From Leptospirales bacterium (GTDB lineage: Bacteria; Spirochaetota; Leptospiria; Leptospirales; Leptospiraceae): a DNA stretch of 64,000 nt. Of the stretch, positions 8,514 through 15,321 are shown one piece after another; the first letter of the stretch is position 1; every line of letters begins with the position of its first letter. Position numbers and translations under genes: made by a program. The notes under the pieces were generated by a model that was not told the origin of the DNA, did not search any database, and worked only from the letters and a program-made list of their open reading frames with translations. Where the stretch lies: assembly GCA_013297885.1 (NCBI GenBank), contig JAAFIR010000013.1, forward strand, positions 1 through 64,000, written 5' to 3'.

Positions 8514-9023
8514 CTATCCGAACTCGAAAATCCTTTCGTATTGGGGAATTTTATTGTCTTGAAAAAATCCCCCGTATTGAAAAACCTGCACCATCCCCGT
8601 TGCAACGGGTAAGTCTAATTTTGTGGTAGAATTTACAACTTCAGCAAAGTCCATCAAGTCAAGGCGGAGCAGCAACACGAAAAGTTTGTTGATCGAAAAA
8701 TTAAATGCTGCTCGATACAACTTCATCACAAACCAATCTTTTTTCCATGGCTCAAAATCTTTCCGAATTAAATTTTGTCCTTTTTCTTGATACTCAGTTT
8801 TAAGACGATAAGAATAAGGAACAATTCCACTCTTCAAATAAATTTCATACTTCTTCAGTAAATGAGCAAAATAAATTTTCAAACTTCCAAAATTTTCTAT
8901 TTTCAAATGAAGTTCTTTCCAATAGTCTTCAGGAATCAAAAGTGTACACGAAGTTTCCACAACTTCATCCATTTCTCTAAGTTCTGCAGATTGCTTTTTA
9001 GTAAAAATATATTTTGTTTTCAT
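8514..9023 (-). CDS. DUF1564 family protein
   Basis: I recognise the DUF1564 pattern: TLLIPEDYWKEL followed by about 20 residues, LLKKYEIYL, a mid-protein KDFEPWKKDWFVMKLYRAAFNFSINKLFVLLLRLD segment and a C-terminal stretch ending near YERIFEF. The family is multi-copy in Leptospira and of unknown function; the central helical part resembles a ribbon-helix-helix or helix-turn-helix type nucleic-acid binder, but this is unproven. I chose ATG 9023 (MKTKYIFTKKQ), giving 169 residues. The open frame extends 30 codons further upstream, but that extension lacks family character. No clear ribosome site is seen. It lies in an accessory region with broken genes and an IS remnant, consistent with a mobile or decaying family. 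Confidence 0.72.
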   Translation of the reverse strand: MKTKYIFTKKQSAELREMDEVVETSCTLLIPEDYWKELHLKIENFGSLKIYFAHLLKKYEIYLKSGIVPYSYRLKTEYQEKGQNLIRKDFEPWKKDWFVMKLYRAAFNFSINKLFVLLLRLDLMDFAEVVNSTTKLDLPVATGMVQVFQYGGFFQDNKIPQYERIFEFG

Positions 9024-9113
9024 ATATTTTAAACTGATTTTGCTTTGTAAAAGTTTGCACAGAAGCGAACTTAATAAAAAATTTTTATTTTTCAAATTTT
9101 TATCTTTCATCAC

Positions 9114-9612: not shown

Positions 9613-10533
9613 ATGATTTTGAAGATTATTAATTTTTTGTCAATAATTTGCCTAATTAGTTGTCAAACTCAATTTATTAATAAAAACTTTGTTAGTTATA
9701 AATTATTTGATGAAGTTGAAAAGCACAAAAAAGAAAATAAAAATAAGAATTTCTCAAAAGCTGTTGGGTTAGGATTCAATAGCTTTTTTTTCGATTCATC
9801 ATCTCTAGGAGAAATTGAAAATCTAAAAAAACTCAGAAACTGCAAGATTTAAAAAGATTTTTACAAAAACTAAAAAGATTTAATAATAAATATTTTGATT
9901 ACAAAAAAAGATTTCGACTTCTCTGATTTATGTGACATGAAAGGACTCTCAAATTCATTTTCAAAATTTTATTTAACTCCATTGATTAAATCTAAAATAT
10001 TAAAATCTGAAACCATAAATTTTGCTAAACCTATCTCAGAAAAAAATTTATTAAAATTTCTAGAAATACTATTCAATAAAGAAAGGGGAAATTTAATTCT
10101 TCAAGAACTAAATCAATTACTGGAAGTTAAAAATAATCAATTTTATTTGGCTTTAGATGATACAAATTTTATTGTTATTGCGAATTTAAAACCCACTGAA
10201 AATAATTTAACAATTAAAGGTAGAATAATTTCGTATTTAACATTTATTCCTTATTTTATAAGTCTTGGCTTTATCCCGAAATTTGAAGAAAAAAAAATAA
10301 ATCCAAGTTTTTATATTTTTAATAGAGACTTAGAATTATTGAAAGAATTTCATTTTGAAAATAAATACTGGACTAGAAGAGTAAATCATTATTACTTTTC
10401 AAGTGGAAAGAAAAGTGAGGAATTAATCCCAGATTTTAGATTAGTAAAAAAACCAATTTTAGAATTCAAAGAAGAGTTAAAAAAATTCTGTAAAGAAAAT
10501 GACTGTGGTGAAATAGAAGATAATCAGGAATAA
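9613..10533 (+). pseudogene. lipoprotein gene with two compensating frameshifts, about 306 aa if repaired
   Basis: ATG 9613 follows CAGGAG and encodes a signal peptide with lipobox LISC. The frame hits a stop at 9850-9852, yet the same frame resumes before 9895 and runs to 10533. Between them, the other frame reads without a stop as TQKLQDLKRFLQKLKRFNNK. One extra A in the A7 run near 9825 and one fewer in the A7 run near 9903 would give a continuous protein reading ENLKKTQKLQDLKRF and later YFDYKKDFDFSDLCDMKG. So this is one former gene, not two. The protein has no recognised domain; its C-terminus is acidic. Either early decay or homopolymer sequencing error explains the defects. Confidence 0.6.
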
Positions 10534-11365: not shown

Positions 11366-12634
11366 ATGTCAAAAAATCAAAGAGTAGTTGTTACAGGAAT
11401 TGGAGTAATTTTACCAAATGCTTTTTCAGTTGATAAATTCTGGTCTCATTTAGTTAATGGTGAGTCGCAAATTGATTATCTAAAAAGATTTCCCACAGAA
11501 GACTTTCCAATAAAAGCAAGTGCTGAAATAAATAATTTTAACTTCAAAGATTTTTTACCTGGTTTAGATCCAAAACTTTCTAAAAATTATAATACAGAAA
11601 CTTTAGCATTAATGTCTGCAATGGAGCTTGCACGTAAAGATGCTGGGCTTGAAAAAAATACTGTTGAACCAAGTAAAGTTGGTTTTATTGACTCTTCTTC
11701 TCGCTCTGCTTTATCTTGGTGGGAACATGCTTGGAAAAAATACCATGAAGAAAAAGATGCAAGTCCATTTGATAGATATGCAGTTCTTACTTCCATGTCT
11801 TCCAATCCAACAAACCTCACTGCCATTAATAATAATATCCAAGGATTTGTTACAACAGTTTCTGCTGCTTGTGTTGGTGGGCATCATGCAGTTAGTTTAT
11901 GTTACCAAGCTATTAGAAAAGGTAGAGCTGAAATTATGTATGCTGGAGGACATGAATTTCCATTGGTCAAACCTTTGATGATGATGTATTCTGATCCACA
12001 AAGTAGAGTGATGTCTATTGAAAAGGACAATCCAAAAAAAGCAATGAAGCCATATGATAAAAATAGAGATGGTTTTATTTTGGGGGAAGGTGCAATTGTT
12101 CTTTGTATGGAAAGTTATGAACATGCAGTAAAACGTGGAGCAAGAATTTATTCAGAAATTTTGGGAACACTTTCTTATAACGAAGCAGACCATGCAATGA
12201 GAATGGATTTAACGGGAAAAAAAGCAGCAAATGGTTTAAATCAACTTTTAAAAATTAGCAAAAAAAATATTAATGAAATAGATTATATTTGTGGTCATGG
12301 AACTGCAACGCGTAACAACGATTATGCGGAAACTAAAGCTATGGAAGTTTTTTATGATACCATTCCAAAACGCAAATGGGCTCCAGTTGGTTCCATCAAA
12401 CCAATCTTTGGACATACTTTTGGTGCAGCAGGAATCATCAACATTGCTGCAACTTCTTTGATGATAAAAAATCAAATAATTTGTCCAACGATTAATTTAG
12501 AAAATGTAGATCCTGATTGTGACCACGACCATGTTGCAGAAGGTTCCCGAAAAACAGAAATTGATTTTGCAATTTCACTTGCATTTGCTATAGGAAGTCA
12601 ATCTTCATTTGTATCTTTAGGAAAAGTAGATTGA
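11366..12634 (+). CDS. beta-ketoacyl synthase, FabF-like
   Basis: A thiolase-fold condensing enzyme that would join an acyl unit to a malonyl thioester by decarboxylative Claisen condensation. The 422 residues match FabF length. The N-terminus reads RVVVTGIGVILPN. The nucleophile is the Cys in VSAACVGGHHA (about residue 169), and the two catalytic histidines are in CGHGTATRNND (about 313) and GHTFGAAG (about 352). GFILGEGA is also typical. The nucleophile context differs from the usual TACATG, so a specialised paralogue rather than the housekeeping FabF is likely. The stop overlaps the start of the CoA-transferase gene. I assign no symbol because the substrate is unknown. Confidence 0.88.
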   Translation: MSKNQRVVVTGIGVILPNAFSVDKFWSHLVNGESQIDYLKRFPTEDFPIKASAEINNFNFKDFLPGLDPKLSKNYNTETLALMSAMELARKDAGLEKNTVEPSKVGFIDSSSRSALSWWEHAWKKYHEEKDASPFDRYAVLTSMSSNPTNLTAINNNIQGFVTTVSAACVGGHHAVSLCYQAIRKGRAEIMYAGGHEFPLVKPLMMMYSDPQSRVMSIEKDNPKKAMKPYDKNRDGFILGEGAIVLCMESYEHAVKRGARIYSEILGTLSYNEADHAMRMDLTGKKAANGLNQLLKISKKNINEIDYICGHGTATRNNDYAETKAMEVFYDTIPKRKWAPVGSIKPIFGHTFGAAGIINIAATSLMIKNQIICPTINLENVDPDCDHDHVAEGSRKTEIDFAISLAFAIGSQSSFVSLGKVD

Positions 12635-14358
12635 AACCAATCATTTTTAATGATGGAGATTCAATGATTGAAAGATTTCTCAAAAGAGAAATGTACATTC
12701 ATATCTCAGCTTCAATGTCTAGACCAAATGCACTTATCTATTCTATCGCAAGAGTTTTTCATGAAGAAAATCCAGAGTTCACAATCAGCATGTCAGGGAT
12801 GCATTCATCTGCACATGCACTTACAATTTCTAAAGTCATAAAAAAGTTAATTACTGGTTTTGCTGGAGACAATTATCCCCGTCCAGTCCCTAATCGAATG
12901 TACCAAAATATTCTGAACAATGATCCTTATGAAGTAGAGTTATGGTCGCTATTATCTTTTGTTCAAAGGTTAATGGCTGGTGCTTTAAAACTTCCTGGTT
13001 TTTTTACAAATTCTTTAATCGGTTCAGACATGGCAAATGATAAACTGGGCAAAACTCTTTTTGAAATTGATGATCCATTAAATCCCGGAAAAAAATTAGC
13101 AATGGTAACAGCTTTAAATCCTGACATCAGCATTGTCCATGGAGTTTGTGCAGACAAACAAGGCAATATCATGTTAGCTTCACCAACTGGTGAAGGAATT
13201 TGGGGAGCATTAGCTGCAAAAAAAGGAATCATTGCTTCAGTTGAAAGAATTGTTCCAAATGGTGCAATTCCTCCTGAGCTAATACATATTCCAGGTGCTA
13301 GAGTTCTTGGCATTTGTGAAATTCCTTTTGGTGCACATCCTCAATCACTTAGAGTTCAAAAAACTATTTTATCTCAAGTGCGTGGTTTAAAAGATTTAAA
13401 AACTTATAGAGATGATTATGAATTTATTATGGAAGCCAATTCAGTTGGTGAATCTCAACTTCAAGCAGAAGTTTGGTTTTTATTCTGGGTAAATTTAAAT
13501 GGCGGTTATGAATCTTATATTGAACTTTTAGGTGAAGACAGATTAGAAATGTTATCCGAAGAACCTGATTTTACCCAAATCGCAAACAAACGGTCAGCAA
13601 TTTTAGAACAAGACCCAGTTGATTGCAACGACACAGAACAATTGATTATTCTCACTGCTCGCAGAATTGTAGATCTAGTCAAAAAAAATAAATACAAAAC
13701 AATTCTTGCTGGAATTGGTGCTGCTCATATGGCTGCTTGGACTGCTGCATTTTTTTTAGAAGAAGAAGACATATACATCAAAGTAGTTTCTGAGCTTGGA
13801 TTTTATGGAGTCACTCCTTATATTGGAGATGTGTTTTTATTTTCTCAACTTCATGCAAACACTACGGAACAACTTTCAGATGTAACTCAAATTTTGGGAA
13901 CACTTGTACCAAGAGAATGTCTCGGAGTGCTAGGCTCTGCCGAAGTGGATGAGTCTGCAAACTTAAATTCAACAATGCTTGGAAATAAAAAATTTATAGT
14001 TGGTTCTGGTGGGGCAAATGATATTGCTTCAACTGCAGATTGTATAGTTGTGGCAAAAGCATTAAAAAGTCGTTTTGTAAAAAATGTACAGTTCATTACT
14101 TCGCCCGGAAAAAATGTAAAAGAAATTGTTTGTCAATTTGGAACATTTGCTCGTGACAAAGAATCAAATAAATTTATTTTTTCAAGATGGAGACCACCTG
14201 TTTCAGATCCAGATATAAATTCCAAACAAGCAATTGAAAATTACACTTCATGGAAAGCTCCTGATATGGAACCAAAACTGGAAAAACCAATTACACCAGA
14301 AGAACTAGGTGTGTTAAGAAAATTAGATCCGCAAAAAATATTTATAAGTGGTAGGTAG
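12631..14358 (+). CDS. class I CoA-transferase, fused A and B halves
   Basis: A 575-residue protein whose N-terminal half reads like a glutaconate-type CoA-transferase alpha subunit (FTISMSGMHSSAHAL, PNPDISIVHG-like ALNPDISIVHGVCADKQGN) and whose C-terminal half reads like the beta subunit. The Glu in VVSELGFYGVTPYIGD (about residue 391) is the best candidate for the residue that carries CoA as a thioester. GSGGANDIAS and QFITSPGKNV follow as in this family. Start TTG 12631 overlaps the upstream stop as TTGA. Located between two condensing enzymes, it probably loads or unloads acyl-CoA for them. The exact acyl group cannot be read from sequence. Confidence 0.8.
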   Translation: MKPIIFNDGDSMIERFLKREMYIHISASMSRPNALIYSIARVFHEENPEFTISMSGMHSSAHALTISKVIKKLITGFAGDNYPRPVPNRMYQNILNNDPYEVELWSLLSFVQRLMAGALKLPGFFTNSLIGSDMANDKLGKTLFEIDDPLNPGKKLAMVTALNPDISIVHGVCADKQGNIMLASPTGEGIWGALAAKKGIIASVERIVPNGAIPPELIHIPGARVLGICEIPFGAHPQSLRVQKTILSQVRGLKDLKTYRDDYEFIMEANSVGESQLQAEVWFLFWVNLNGGYESYIELLGEDRLEMLSEEPDFTQIANKRSAILEQDPVDCNDTEQLIILTARRIVDLVKKNKYKTILAGIGAAHMAAWTAAFFLEEEDIYIKVVSELGFYGVTPYIGDVFLFSQLHANTTEQLSDVTQILGTLVPRECLGVLGSAEVDESANLNSTMLGNKKFIVGSGGANDIASTADCIVVAKALKSRFVKNVQFITSPGKNVKEIVCQFGTFARDKESNKFIFSRWRPPVSDPDINSKQAIENYTSWKAPDMEPKLEKPITPEELGVLRKLDPQKIFISGR

Positions 14359-15321
14359 ATGATGTTAAAGACAACAGGACATGTGATTACAGGATATGGA
14401 TACTATTATCCAGAAAAAGTTTTACAAGATGAAGAAATTCGTGCTAGATTAAAATATCCAGAAATGCACCCCGCTGAAAAAGCTGTGATTGGAGATATTG
14501 GAGTTACTGAAAGATTTAGAGCAAATGAAAGAGAGACATCAGTTTATATGGCTGCTGAAGCAACAAAGATGGCTTTAAAAGATGCAAATGTAAAAGCAGA
14601 AGAAATTGATTTGTATTTATTTTGCAACTGGACTGAAAGATATTTTTTACCAGACTTAGCTCCTCAAGCTTCTAAACTTGCAGGCACTTCTAACGCACTT
14701 GCATTTGATTTGGGAACAGCTTGTTCTGGTTTTGTGCTTGGAGTTCAAACTGCATCTTGTTATTTTGCAACAGGCAAATGGAAAAAAGCAGTTGTTGTGG
14801 GCTCTGAAAGATTTTCTATTCGCACAAAAATGGGTGGCTATGGAGAATTCACAGCTGGAGATGCAGCTGCTGCAGTAATTATCGAAAACACAGGGGACAC
14901 CACTCGTGGGATCATAGATTATTTTTTAAAAGATGAAGCTGACCTAAAAGACATCATAACTTGTGATGCACCAAAAGGAATTATCAAAAGTTATCCAGAC
15001 CTCATTCCAAATGCAGCAGGTCTCACCCTCAAAGCAATTGATCTAATGATGGAGCGGAATAATATTAAAAACGAAGACATTCATTGGGTTGTGCCTCACC
15101 CAGGAACGGTTCTTGTTGTGGATAAAGTTTTAAATGAAACTAAGCTTCCAAAAGAAAAATTTTTGATGAACTATCCAAAAATGGGAAATGCTTCTGCAGC
15201 TTCCATTCCAACCGTACTTGCTGATTTTTGGTTTAATGGAACGATCAAAAAAAACCAATTGATTCTTGCCCCTGCTGTTGGTGGTGGTTTTTATTGGGGA
15301 GCATTTTTGTACATTACTTAA
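14359..15321 (+). CDS. beta-ketoacyl-ACP synthase III-like protein (FabH fold)
   Basis: A condensing enzyme of 320 residues with the FabH triad: Cys in DLGTACSGFVLGV (about residue 119), His in VVPHPGT (about 248) and Asn in GNASAASIP (about 279). IGVTERFRANERETSVYMA is the usual N-terminal signature. The 3' end has the family's glycine-rich closing strand (LAPAVGGGFYWGAFL). ATG 14359 directly follows the upstream TAG, with AGGTAG serving as ribosome site. Housekeeping FabH usually sits with fabD, fabG or acpP; here the partners are a FabF-like synthase and a CoA-transferase, so it likely works in a special acyl-condensing route. Confidence 0.85.
   Translation: MMLKTTGHVITGYGYYYPEKVLQDEEIRARLKYPEMHPAEKAVIGDIGVTERFRANERETSVYMAAEATKMALKDANVKAEEIDLYLFCNWTERYFLPDLAPQASKLAGTSNALAFDLGTACSGFVLGVQTASCYFATGKWKKAVVVGSERFSIRTKMGGYGEFTAGDAAAAVIIENTGDTTRGIIDYFLKDEADLKDIITCDAPKGIIKSYPDLIPNAAGLTLKAIDLMMERNNIKNEDIHWVVPHPGTVLVVDKVLNETKLPKEKFLMNYPKMGNASAASIPTVLADFWFNGTIKKNQLILAPAVGGGFYWGAFLYIT

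Follow-up and report, generated by a model that had tools for sequence, protein, structure and literature searches.

Condensing enzymes of the FabF kind (beta-ketoacyl-acyl carrier protein synthase II) and of the FabH kind (beta-ketoacyl-acyl carrier protein synthase III) normally depend on acyl carrier protein (ACP). Relatives of both were found on either side of a relative of a third described enzyme, the glutaconate coenzyme A (CoA)-transferase GctAB, in the 64,000-nucleotide stretch of the Leptospirales contig JAAFIR010000013.1 analyzed here (the window). The three genes, together called the triad, code in turn for a ketosynthase resembling FabF (KAS), a class I CoA-transferase with its two halves fused, and a synthase resembling FabH (KASIII). 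Their active sites are intact, and the genes make up a single coupled operon: the open reading frames (ORFs) of KAS and the CoA-transferase overlap by 4 bases, and KASIII starts at the base directly after the CoA-transferase stop, in agreement with the translational coupling proposed in a preliminary description of this DNA. We regard as evenly poised between right and wrong the reading that the triad is the core of an accessory acyl-assembly unit that stands outside general fatty-acid synthesis and occurs in a handful of Leptospiraceae as well as in a natural-product cluster of Streptomyces. It is based on a same-order operon in Streptomyces, on the single groups that the triad KAS and KASIII form in trees, on rarity in the phylum, and on two recurring partners, a short-chain dehydrogenase/reductase (SDR) and a hotdog protein fused to a 23S rRNA IVP (S23) domain. 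Judged from titles, no triad of KAS, KASIII and a CoA-transferase was found described in the one open-licence library searched.

All Pfam domains of the triad proteins exceeded their gathering scores (ketoacyl-synt N and C, CoA_trans, ACP_syn_III and ACP_syn_III_C), and none of the listed matches to the three proteins reached a curated NCBIfam cut-off. KAS resembles FabF in its fold family and in a complete Cys-His-His site with Lys (C169, H311, K345 and H350; Table 1). It differs in scoring 299.7 bits against the fabF model TIGR03150, below the cut-off of 493.75, and in the replacement of the GFGG loop. Motifs were compared with 14 canonical FabF and 14 canonical FabH rows, each set made up of 11 spirochaete and 3 plasmid rows. 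The GFGG loop was present in all 14 FabF rows and in none of the five triad KAS, which have A[IF]GSQ. CVGGH surrounds the nucleophile in all five triad KAS and in none of the 14 FabF rows, bearing out the unusual nucleophile context noted earlier. In a tree of 36 rows, the five triad KAS formed one group (100/100), with the Streptomyces copy as sister to the four Leptospiraceae copies.

KASIII shares with FabH the fold family and a complete Cys-His-Asn site (C122, H247 and N277), and the full triads of the first reading stand. It differs in falling below both model cut-offs (TIGR00747, 170.8 of 292.1 bits; PRK09352, 187.4 of 249) and in lacking HQANxR. This motif was found in 14/14 canonical FabH rows and 0/5 triad KASIII, which have HPG[TN]; the Arg of the FabH motif PHQANxR, missing in the triad KASIII, is presumably an ACP-docking residue. 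The five triad rows grouped together in the KASIII tree as well (37 rows; 100/99), the Streptomyces copy again being sister to the four from Leptospiraceae. By the curated models and motifs tested, neither synthase would be filed as FabF or FabH, and each triad protein is predicted to work like a known class. Identity of KASIII with OleA was ruled out: the match to structure 3row, which we take to be OleA, spans residues 17-152 only and has 39 bits, compared with 140.4 bits for FabH 2ebd. The BioZ (3-oxopimeloyl-ACP synthase) entries 9j6e and 9w96 also scored below this FabH, at 73.6 and 68.5 bits (sequence scores alone). Structure predictions from two-row alignments were unusable, with a mean pLDDT of 31.1 for KAS and 55.0 for KASIII.

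The predicted CoA-transferase has the class I features tested, namely, the domain in both halves and the catalytic Glu position. PF01144 (CoA_trans) matched at 134.6 bits in two stretches, both halves lying in one chain, and both subunits of glutaconate CoA-transferase were matched by profile (1poi_A, E 1.5e-32; 1poi_B, E 1.3e-16), which upholds the earlier assignment as a fused class I enzyme. Its score against pcaI_scoA_fam was 41 bits (cut-off, 128.5), and by profile the predicted enzyme is nearest to glutaconate CoA-transferase. Glu388 aligned by profile with the Glu of SENG (SCOT-type) and QESG (GctB-type) beta subunits, which we take to be the catalytic residue; with Glu388 in place, a repurposed CoA-transferase devoid of this Glu was ruled out. 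The window enzyme is like GctAB (1poi) in that both subunits are matched and the Glu is kept, whereas it differs in the fusion of the two halves and in its linkage to condensing enzymes. Fused CoA-transferases of the same family also occur on Rhodococcus and Azoarcus plasmids (L123, L124 and L125), two of the three having genes for enoyl-CoA hydratase, SDR and acyl-CoA dehydrogenase close by.

When 72,556 plasmid records were searched by tblastn, the top plasmid match for each triad protein was Streptomyces sp. NBC_00388 plasmid NZ_CP107949.1, on which OG917_RS30390, RS30385 and RS30380 encode KAS, CoA-transferase and KASIII. Identities to the window proteins were 46.8% for KAS, 39.0% for the CoA-transferase and 39.0% for KASIII; the next plasmid records among the matches listed had at most 33.3%, 33.4% and at most 30.0%, respectively. 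The two operons share genes, order, strand and the 4-base overlap of KAS and CoA-transferase, as well as the CVGGH, GSQ and HPG motifs. The window triad stands alone, flanked by a lipoprotein-like gene and ftsK, whereas the Streptomyces copy is part of a large cluster that includes genes for nitrosuccinate lyase, anthranilate synthase and a carboxylase. The conserved-neighborhood search suggested in the preliminary description thus found the operon, with its gene order kept, within a cluster on a Streptomyces plasmid. Its neighbors are an acyl-CoA carboxylase, MaoC, SDRs, an acyl-CoA dehydrogenase, AMP ligases, a fused anthranilate synthase and an FAD/NAD(P)-binding protein, with the carboxylase, MaoC and one SDR on the strand opposite to the triad. 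The nitrosuccinate lyase scored 762.6 bits, over a curated cut-off of 650. Passages of PMC11429834 describe how the nitrosuccinate lyase CreD and the flavin enzyme CreE make nitrous acid for the diazo groups of cremeomycin and other compounds. The FAD protein of the Streptomyces cluster is CreE-like by position and annotation only, as NCBIfam names no family for it. This gene content points to a natural-product cluster with diazo-type chemistry.

The triad KAS is patchy and rare in the phylum. Its profile matched 4 of 392 phylum genomes at an E value of 1e-90 or better (G000, G001, G003 and G005), all of one family, and it is present in half of the eight genomes of that family. The order in G005 is KAS, CoA-transferase, SDR (on the other strand) and KASIII. 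Because KAS and KASIII recur in three other family genomes and on the Streptomyces plasmid, the triad is more than a chance arrangement, and its patchy occurrence in two phyla suggests horizontal spread. Scans with the KAS and CoA-transferase profiles found no relatives on viral contigs. An exact short-peptide contig scan missed G001-G003 and hence sets no bound on distribution; it returned a close relative (L010) in the Leptospiraceae metagenome-assembled genome RE-18aug17-155, whose match lies at the coordinates of G005:C114, together with a partial match of 28% in Enterococcus (L011).

In G001 and G003, the hotdog-S23 fusion and the SDR adjoin KAS. A partner search with the G001 proteins covered nine genomes, G006 and G007 being outside the set. 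The SDR (47-57%) and the fusion (46-70%) were found in G000, G002, G003 and G005, and in G004, G008, G009 and G010 the SDRs reached 36-41% at best and the fusion was not matched over its full length, the G008 match being confined to the S23 part. The hotdog-S23 gene of the window's own genome comes after a second hotdog gene; in G002, the SDR and hotdog genes are together, and an unrelated short gene follows the latter. The preliminary description had the triad without fabD, fabG or acpP. No FabD, FabG or ACP gene adjoins the window triad in the ORF list and Pfam scan, but three relatives have a partner SDR within or next to the module, and the own genome has one at another place. The hotdog (4HBT_2)-S23 fusion is an odd pairing of domains, seen at L073 (8278-9090), L074 (6724-7557), L184 (5478-6374) and L183 (7747-8529).

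A kinase-AAA-GAF protein of 1553-1775 amino acids (aa), with a Ser/Thr kinase, is encoded directly after KASIII in G001, G003 and G005; its reading frame is cut off by the stretch end in G003 and by the contig end in G005. Giant proteins of this kind, with SpoIIE or cyclase output domains, adjoin module genes in four genomes (Table 1). The own genome has a 1793-aa kinase relative with a cyclase domain beside its SDR. A search of 1.25 Mb of the own genome (27% of it, in contigs not randomly chosen) gave two full-length kinases of the giant type; identity to the G001 kinase was 37% for the one beside the SDR and 38% for the second, at C15. Head to head with the G005 hotdog gene stands the gene for a 494-aa protein (L185, 5196-6680, minus strand) that has no Pfam match and matches residues 886-1319, in the middle part, of the G005 kinase. 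The link of these kinases to the triad module is suggestive.

Table 1. Features of the triad operon and giant kinase loci. Positions are those of the window unless a locus label (L) is given.
Feature	Position	Strand	Basis
KAS gene, FabF-like ketosynthase, 422 aa	11366..12634	+	Pfam PF00109 and PF02801; TIGR03150 299.7 bits
Fused class I (glutaconate-type) CoA-transferase gene, 575 aa, TTG start	12631..14358	+	PF01144 in two stretches; 1poi_A profile match
KASIII gene, FabH-like synthase, 320 aa	14359..15321	+	Pfam PF08541 and PF08545; PRK09352 187.4 bits
KAS nucleophile Cys169 in SAACVGGHH	11870..11872	+	
KAS His311	12296..12298	+	
KAS His350	12413..12415	+	
KAS loop FAIGSQ, at the site of the FabF gate loop GFGGxN	12584..12601	+	Motif comparison
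CoA-transferase Glu388 (SELGFYG)	13792..13794	+	Invariant in 8/8 aligned sequences
KASIII nucleophile Cys122	14722..14724	+	
KASIII PHPGT (His247), at the site of FabH PHQAN; the Arg three residues later is absent	15094..15108	+	
KASIII Asn277	15187..15189	+	
Giant kinase locus	L073 323-5650	-	
Giant kinase locus	L074 10218-14999	+	
Giant kinase locus	L068 6368-11026	+	
Giant kinase locus	L182 3001-8382	-	

We also surveyed the fatty-acid genes of the own genome (4,615,609 bases, 99.99% complete by the tool's estimate) and its relatives. In the own genome, the fabF model gave 299.4 bits for the triad KAS and at most 18.7 bits for anything else, and the broader PF00109 model had three further weak matches of 23 to 28.4 bits. 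The KASIII C-terminal domain matched four proteins, i.e., the triad KASIII, a neighboring pair on contig C4, and a type III polyketide synthase (PKS)-like protein; a second carrier-protein domain, besides the stand-alone AcpP, lies inside an 868-aa frame. The preliminary description had named sole possession of a FabF and a FabH as the mark of a housekeeping pair: KAS is indeed the only strong FabF-type match, but KASIII has the three further matches to its C-terminal domain. FabD (PF00698) had no match in the own genome, nor in 7/8 family genomes with the own one included. In a sample of 61 genomes, no FabF above the TIGR03150 cut-off was found in the 48 class members (G000-G047, some incomplete), compared with 12 of the 13 phylum genomes outside the class. 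Many class members outside the family have other sub-cut-off ketosynthases, about 30% identical to the triad KAS, and FabD-like proteins, so that acyl-chain synthesis is not lacking from the class at large. For Leptospira interrogans, parts of PMC11442865 name genes for fabF (LIMLP_11535, upregulated in biofilm), fabG, acpP, acpS and fas1, and nothing is therefore claimed here on fatty-acid synthesis in Leptospira. The triad is not housekeeping fatty-acid synthesis, given the lack of a FabD match, the further KASIII-domain matches, and the absence of both this KAS and any FabF over the cut-off from the high-quality genomes G004 and G006. Housekeeping synthesis was ruled out as the leading explanation by the FabD lack together with the want of FabF over the cut-off throughout the class sample and the rarity of KAS.

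Other synthase loci were seen in the course of this survey. Eleven ketosynthases of the class (L052, L054, L057, L058, L059, L060, L062-L065 and L067) form one well-supported group with the motifs NSSACNTGTE and GHLT[AG]T, and several adjoin short genes of ACP, dehydratase and SDR size. On contig C4 of the own genome, the two adjacent KASIII-type genes are accompanied by an SDR and an AMP-binding ligase gene (L075, 6078-11435). The type III PKS-like gene on C32 (L076, 6818-7867) has an AcrB-type transporter gene on one side and, on the other, a glycosyltransferase gene followed by DNA polymerase I. Upstream of the triad in the window, the genes at 9895-10533 and 8514-9113 resemble, in that order, the leptospiral Lp29 lipoprotein (below the cut-off) and DUF1564.

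As for its mechanism, KASIII would load an acyl-CoA starter and condense it with a malonyl unit, the SDR would reduce, the hotdog enzyme would dehydrate or hydrolyze, and KAS would perform a further condensation. The glutaconate-type CoA-transferase would shift CoA between a free acid and a donor thioester, thereby either activating an unusual starter acid or releasing the product while saving the thioester. The triad is probably a portable unit for a small acyl compound rather than for ordinary fat synthesis; its product would be a short acyl compound, built perhaps at the CoA level and perhaps a signal. The earlier interpretation is partly borne out: its idea of a compact module for a special acyl product gains support from the operon conserved in the Streptomyces natural-product cluster and from the patchy distribution. 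Within the accessory-unit reading, the version with intermediates on CoA rather than on a carrier protein is somewhat the likelier, and taken by itself it is a tentative proposal. We prefer it because there is no FabD match, no ACP gene near either operon, and no HQANxR in KASIII. A profile of 13 AcpP sequences, which recovers the known own AcpP, found no carrier protein in the 64-kb window or in the 41 kb around the Streptomyces operon or other module loci tested.

Several observations weigh against the accessory-unit reading or against parts of it. This AcpP profile is leptospiral and could miss a very divergent carrier, and the own genome has a stand-alone AcpP on contig C33, so that an ACP route is possible. 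Most of the remaining non-canonical KASIII rows, among them the pair on C4 of the own genome, lack the Arg of HQANxR as well; the loss of this residue therefore marks departure from FabH and not the triad alone. The phylogenetic check proposed for the two synthases gave a triad group for each, but in the KASIII tree the triad rows are joined by a Bacteroides FabH row (88/86) and two long-branch rows (98/97), so that KASIII may have arisen from within FabH. A single Streptomyces record was found. G001 and G003 keep KAS and KASIII adjacent with the CoA-transferase on another contig, G002 keeps the CoA-transferase, SDR and hotdog genes with no triad KAS or KASIII found there, and the own-genome partners are far from the triad (SDR, C4:58537-59307; hotdog-S23, C33:123743-124510). 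Finally, the GC content of the triad (33.7-37.3%, versus 34.3% for gatB) gives no sign of recent transfer.

The stand-alone AcpP is also the starting point for a rather unlikely alternative, an ACP-dependent accessory synthase in which both condensing enzymes would draw on the resident AcpP to make a special acyl chain, for instance for an envelope lipid, and the CoA-transferase would supply only an unusual starter CoA. The two synthases have their closest sequence matches among ACP-dependent enzymes; however, no FabD match was found in the genome, no ACP lies near the operon in either phylum, and HQANxR and GFGG are absent from all five triads. The missing FabD likewise speaks against a replacement of housekeeping synthesis, with the sole FabF-type KAS and KASIII supplying basic fatty acids. 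That the triad KAS is the only strong FabF-type match, in a phylum where canonical FabF occurs in 12/13 spirochaetes outside the class, would fit such a role, whereas KAS is absent from the high-quality same-family genomes G004 and G006, themselves devoid of FabF over the cut-off, and the triad also occurs in a Streptomyces plasmid cluster; we consider this explanation very improbable. We think just as little of a catabolic use, in which the enzymes would run toward breakdown and the CoA-transferase would activate an imported acid. The degradation-type clusters around fused CoA-transferases of the same family on Rhodococcus jostii and Azoarcus plasmids suggest it, but the closest operon sits in a biosynthetic cluster, and enzymes with C-H-H and C-H-N sites usually act in the synthetic direction.

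A special case of the accessory-unit reading is that the triad makes a small diffusible acyl signal, read by the neighboring giant STAND Ser/Thr kinases. The kinase-AAA-GAF genes directly after KASIII in three genomes, the cyclase-domain relative adjoining the own SDR, the protein related to the middle part of the kinase opposite the G005 hotdog gene, and the presence of just two such full-length kinases in 1.25 Mb of the own genome all favor it. This sample is non-random, however, and the count is descriptive only; the own SDR-adjacent kinase is no closer to that of G001 than is the C15 one, the annotated Streptomyces neighbors include no such kinase, and the kinases could instead regulate the synthases. 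On balance we find the signal doubtful. A slimmer chance still is given to its boldest form, a carrier-free, CoA-level line of two ketosynthases, loaded or released by the CoA-transferase, that would be shared with an actinomycete diazo-type pathway and would make a leptospiral signal read by its own STAND kinase. This form is less probable because the Arg loss is not specific to the triad.

An operon found in two phyla that pairs both kinds of synthase with a CoA-transferase, with no carrier gene found adjoining and the canonical motifs replaced, could represent compact CoA-based chain building. Understanding the triad would help in reading the Streptomyces diazo-type cluster that contains it. 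According to parts of PMC11442865, the best-known member of Leptospira lives mainly on imported long-chain fatty acids. In relatives of Leptospira, the triad would point to a dedicated small-molecule product.

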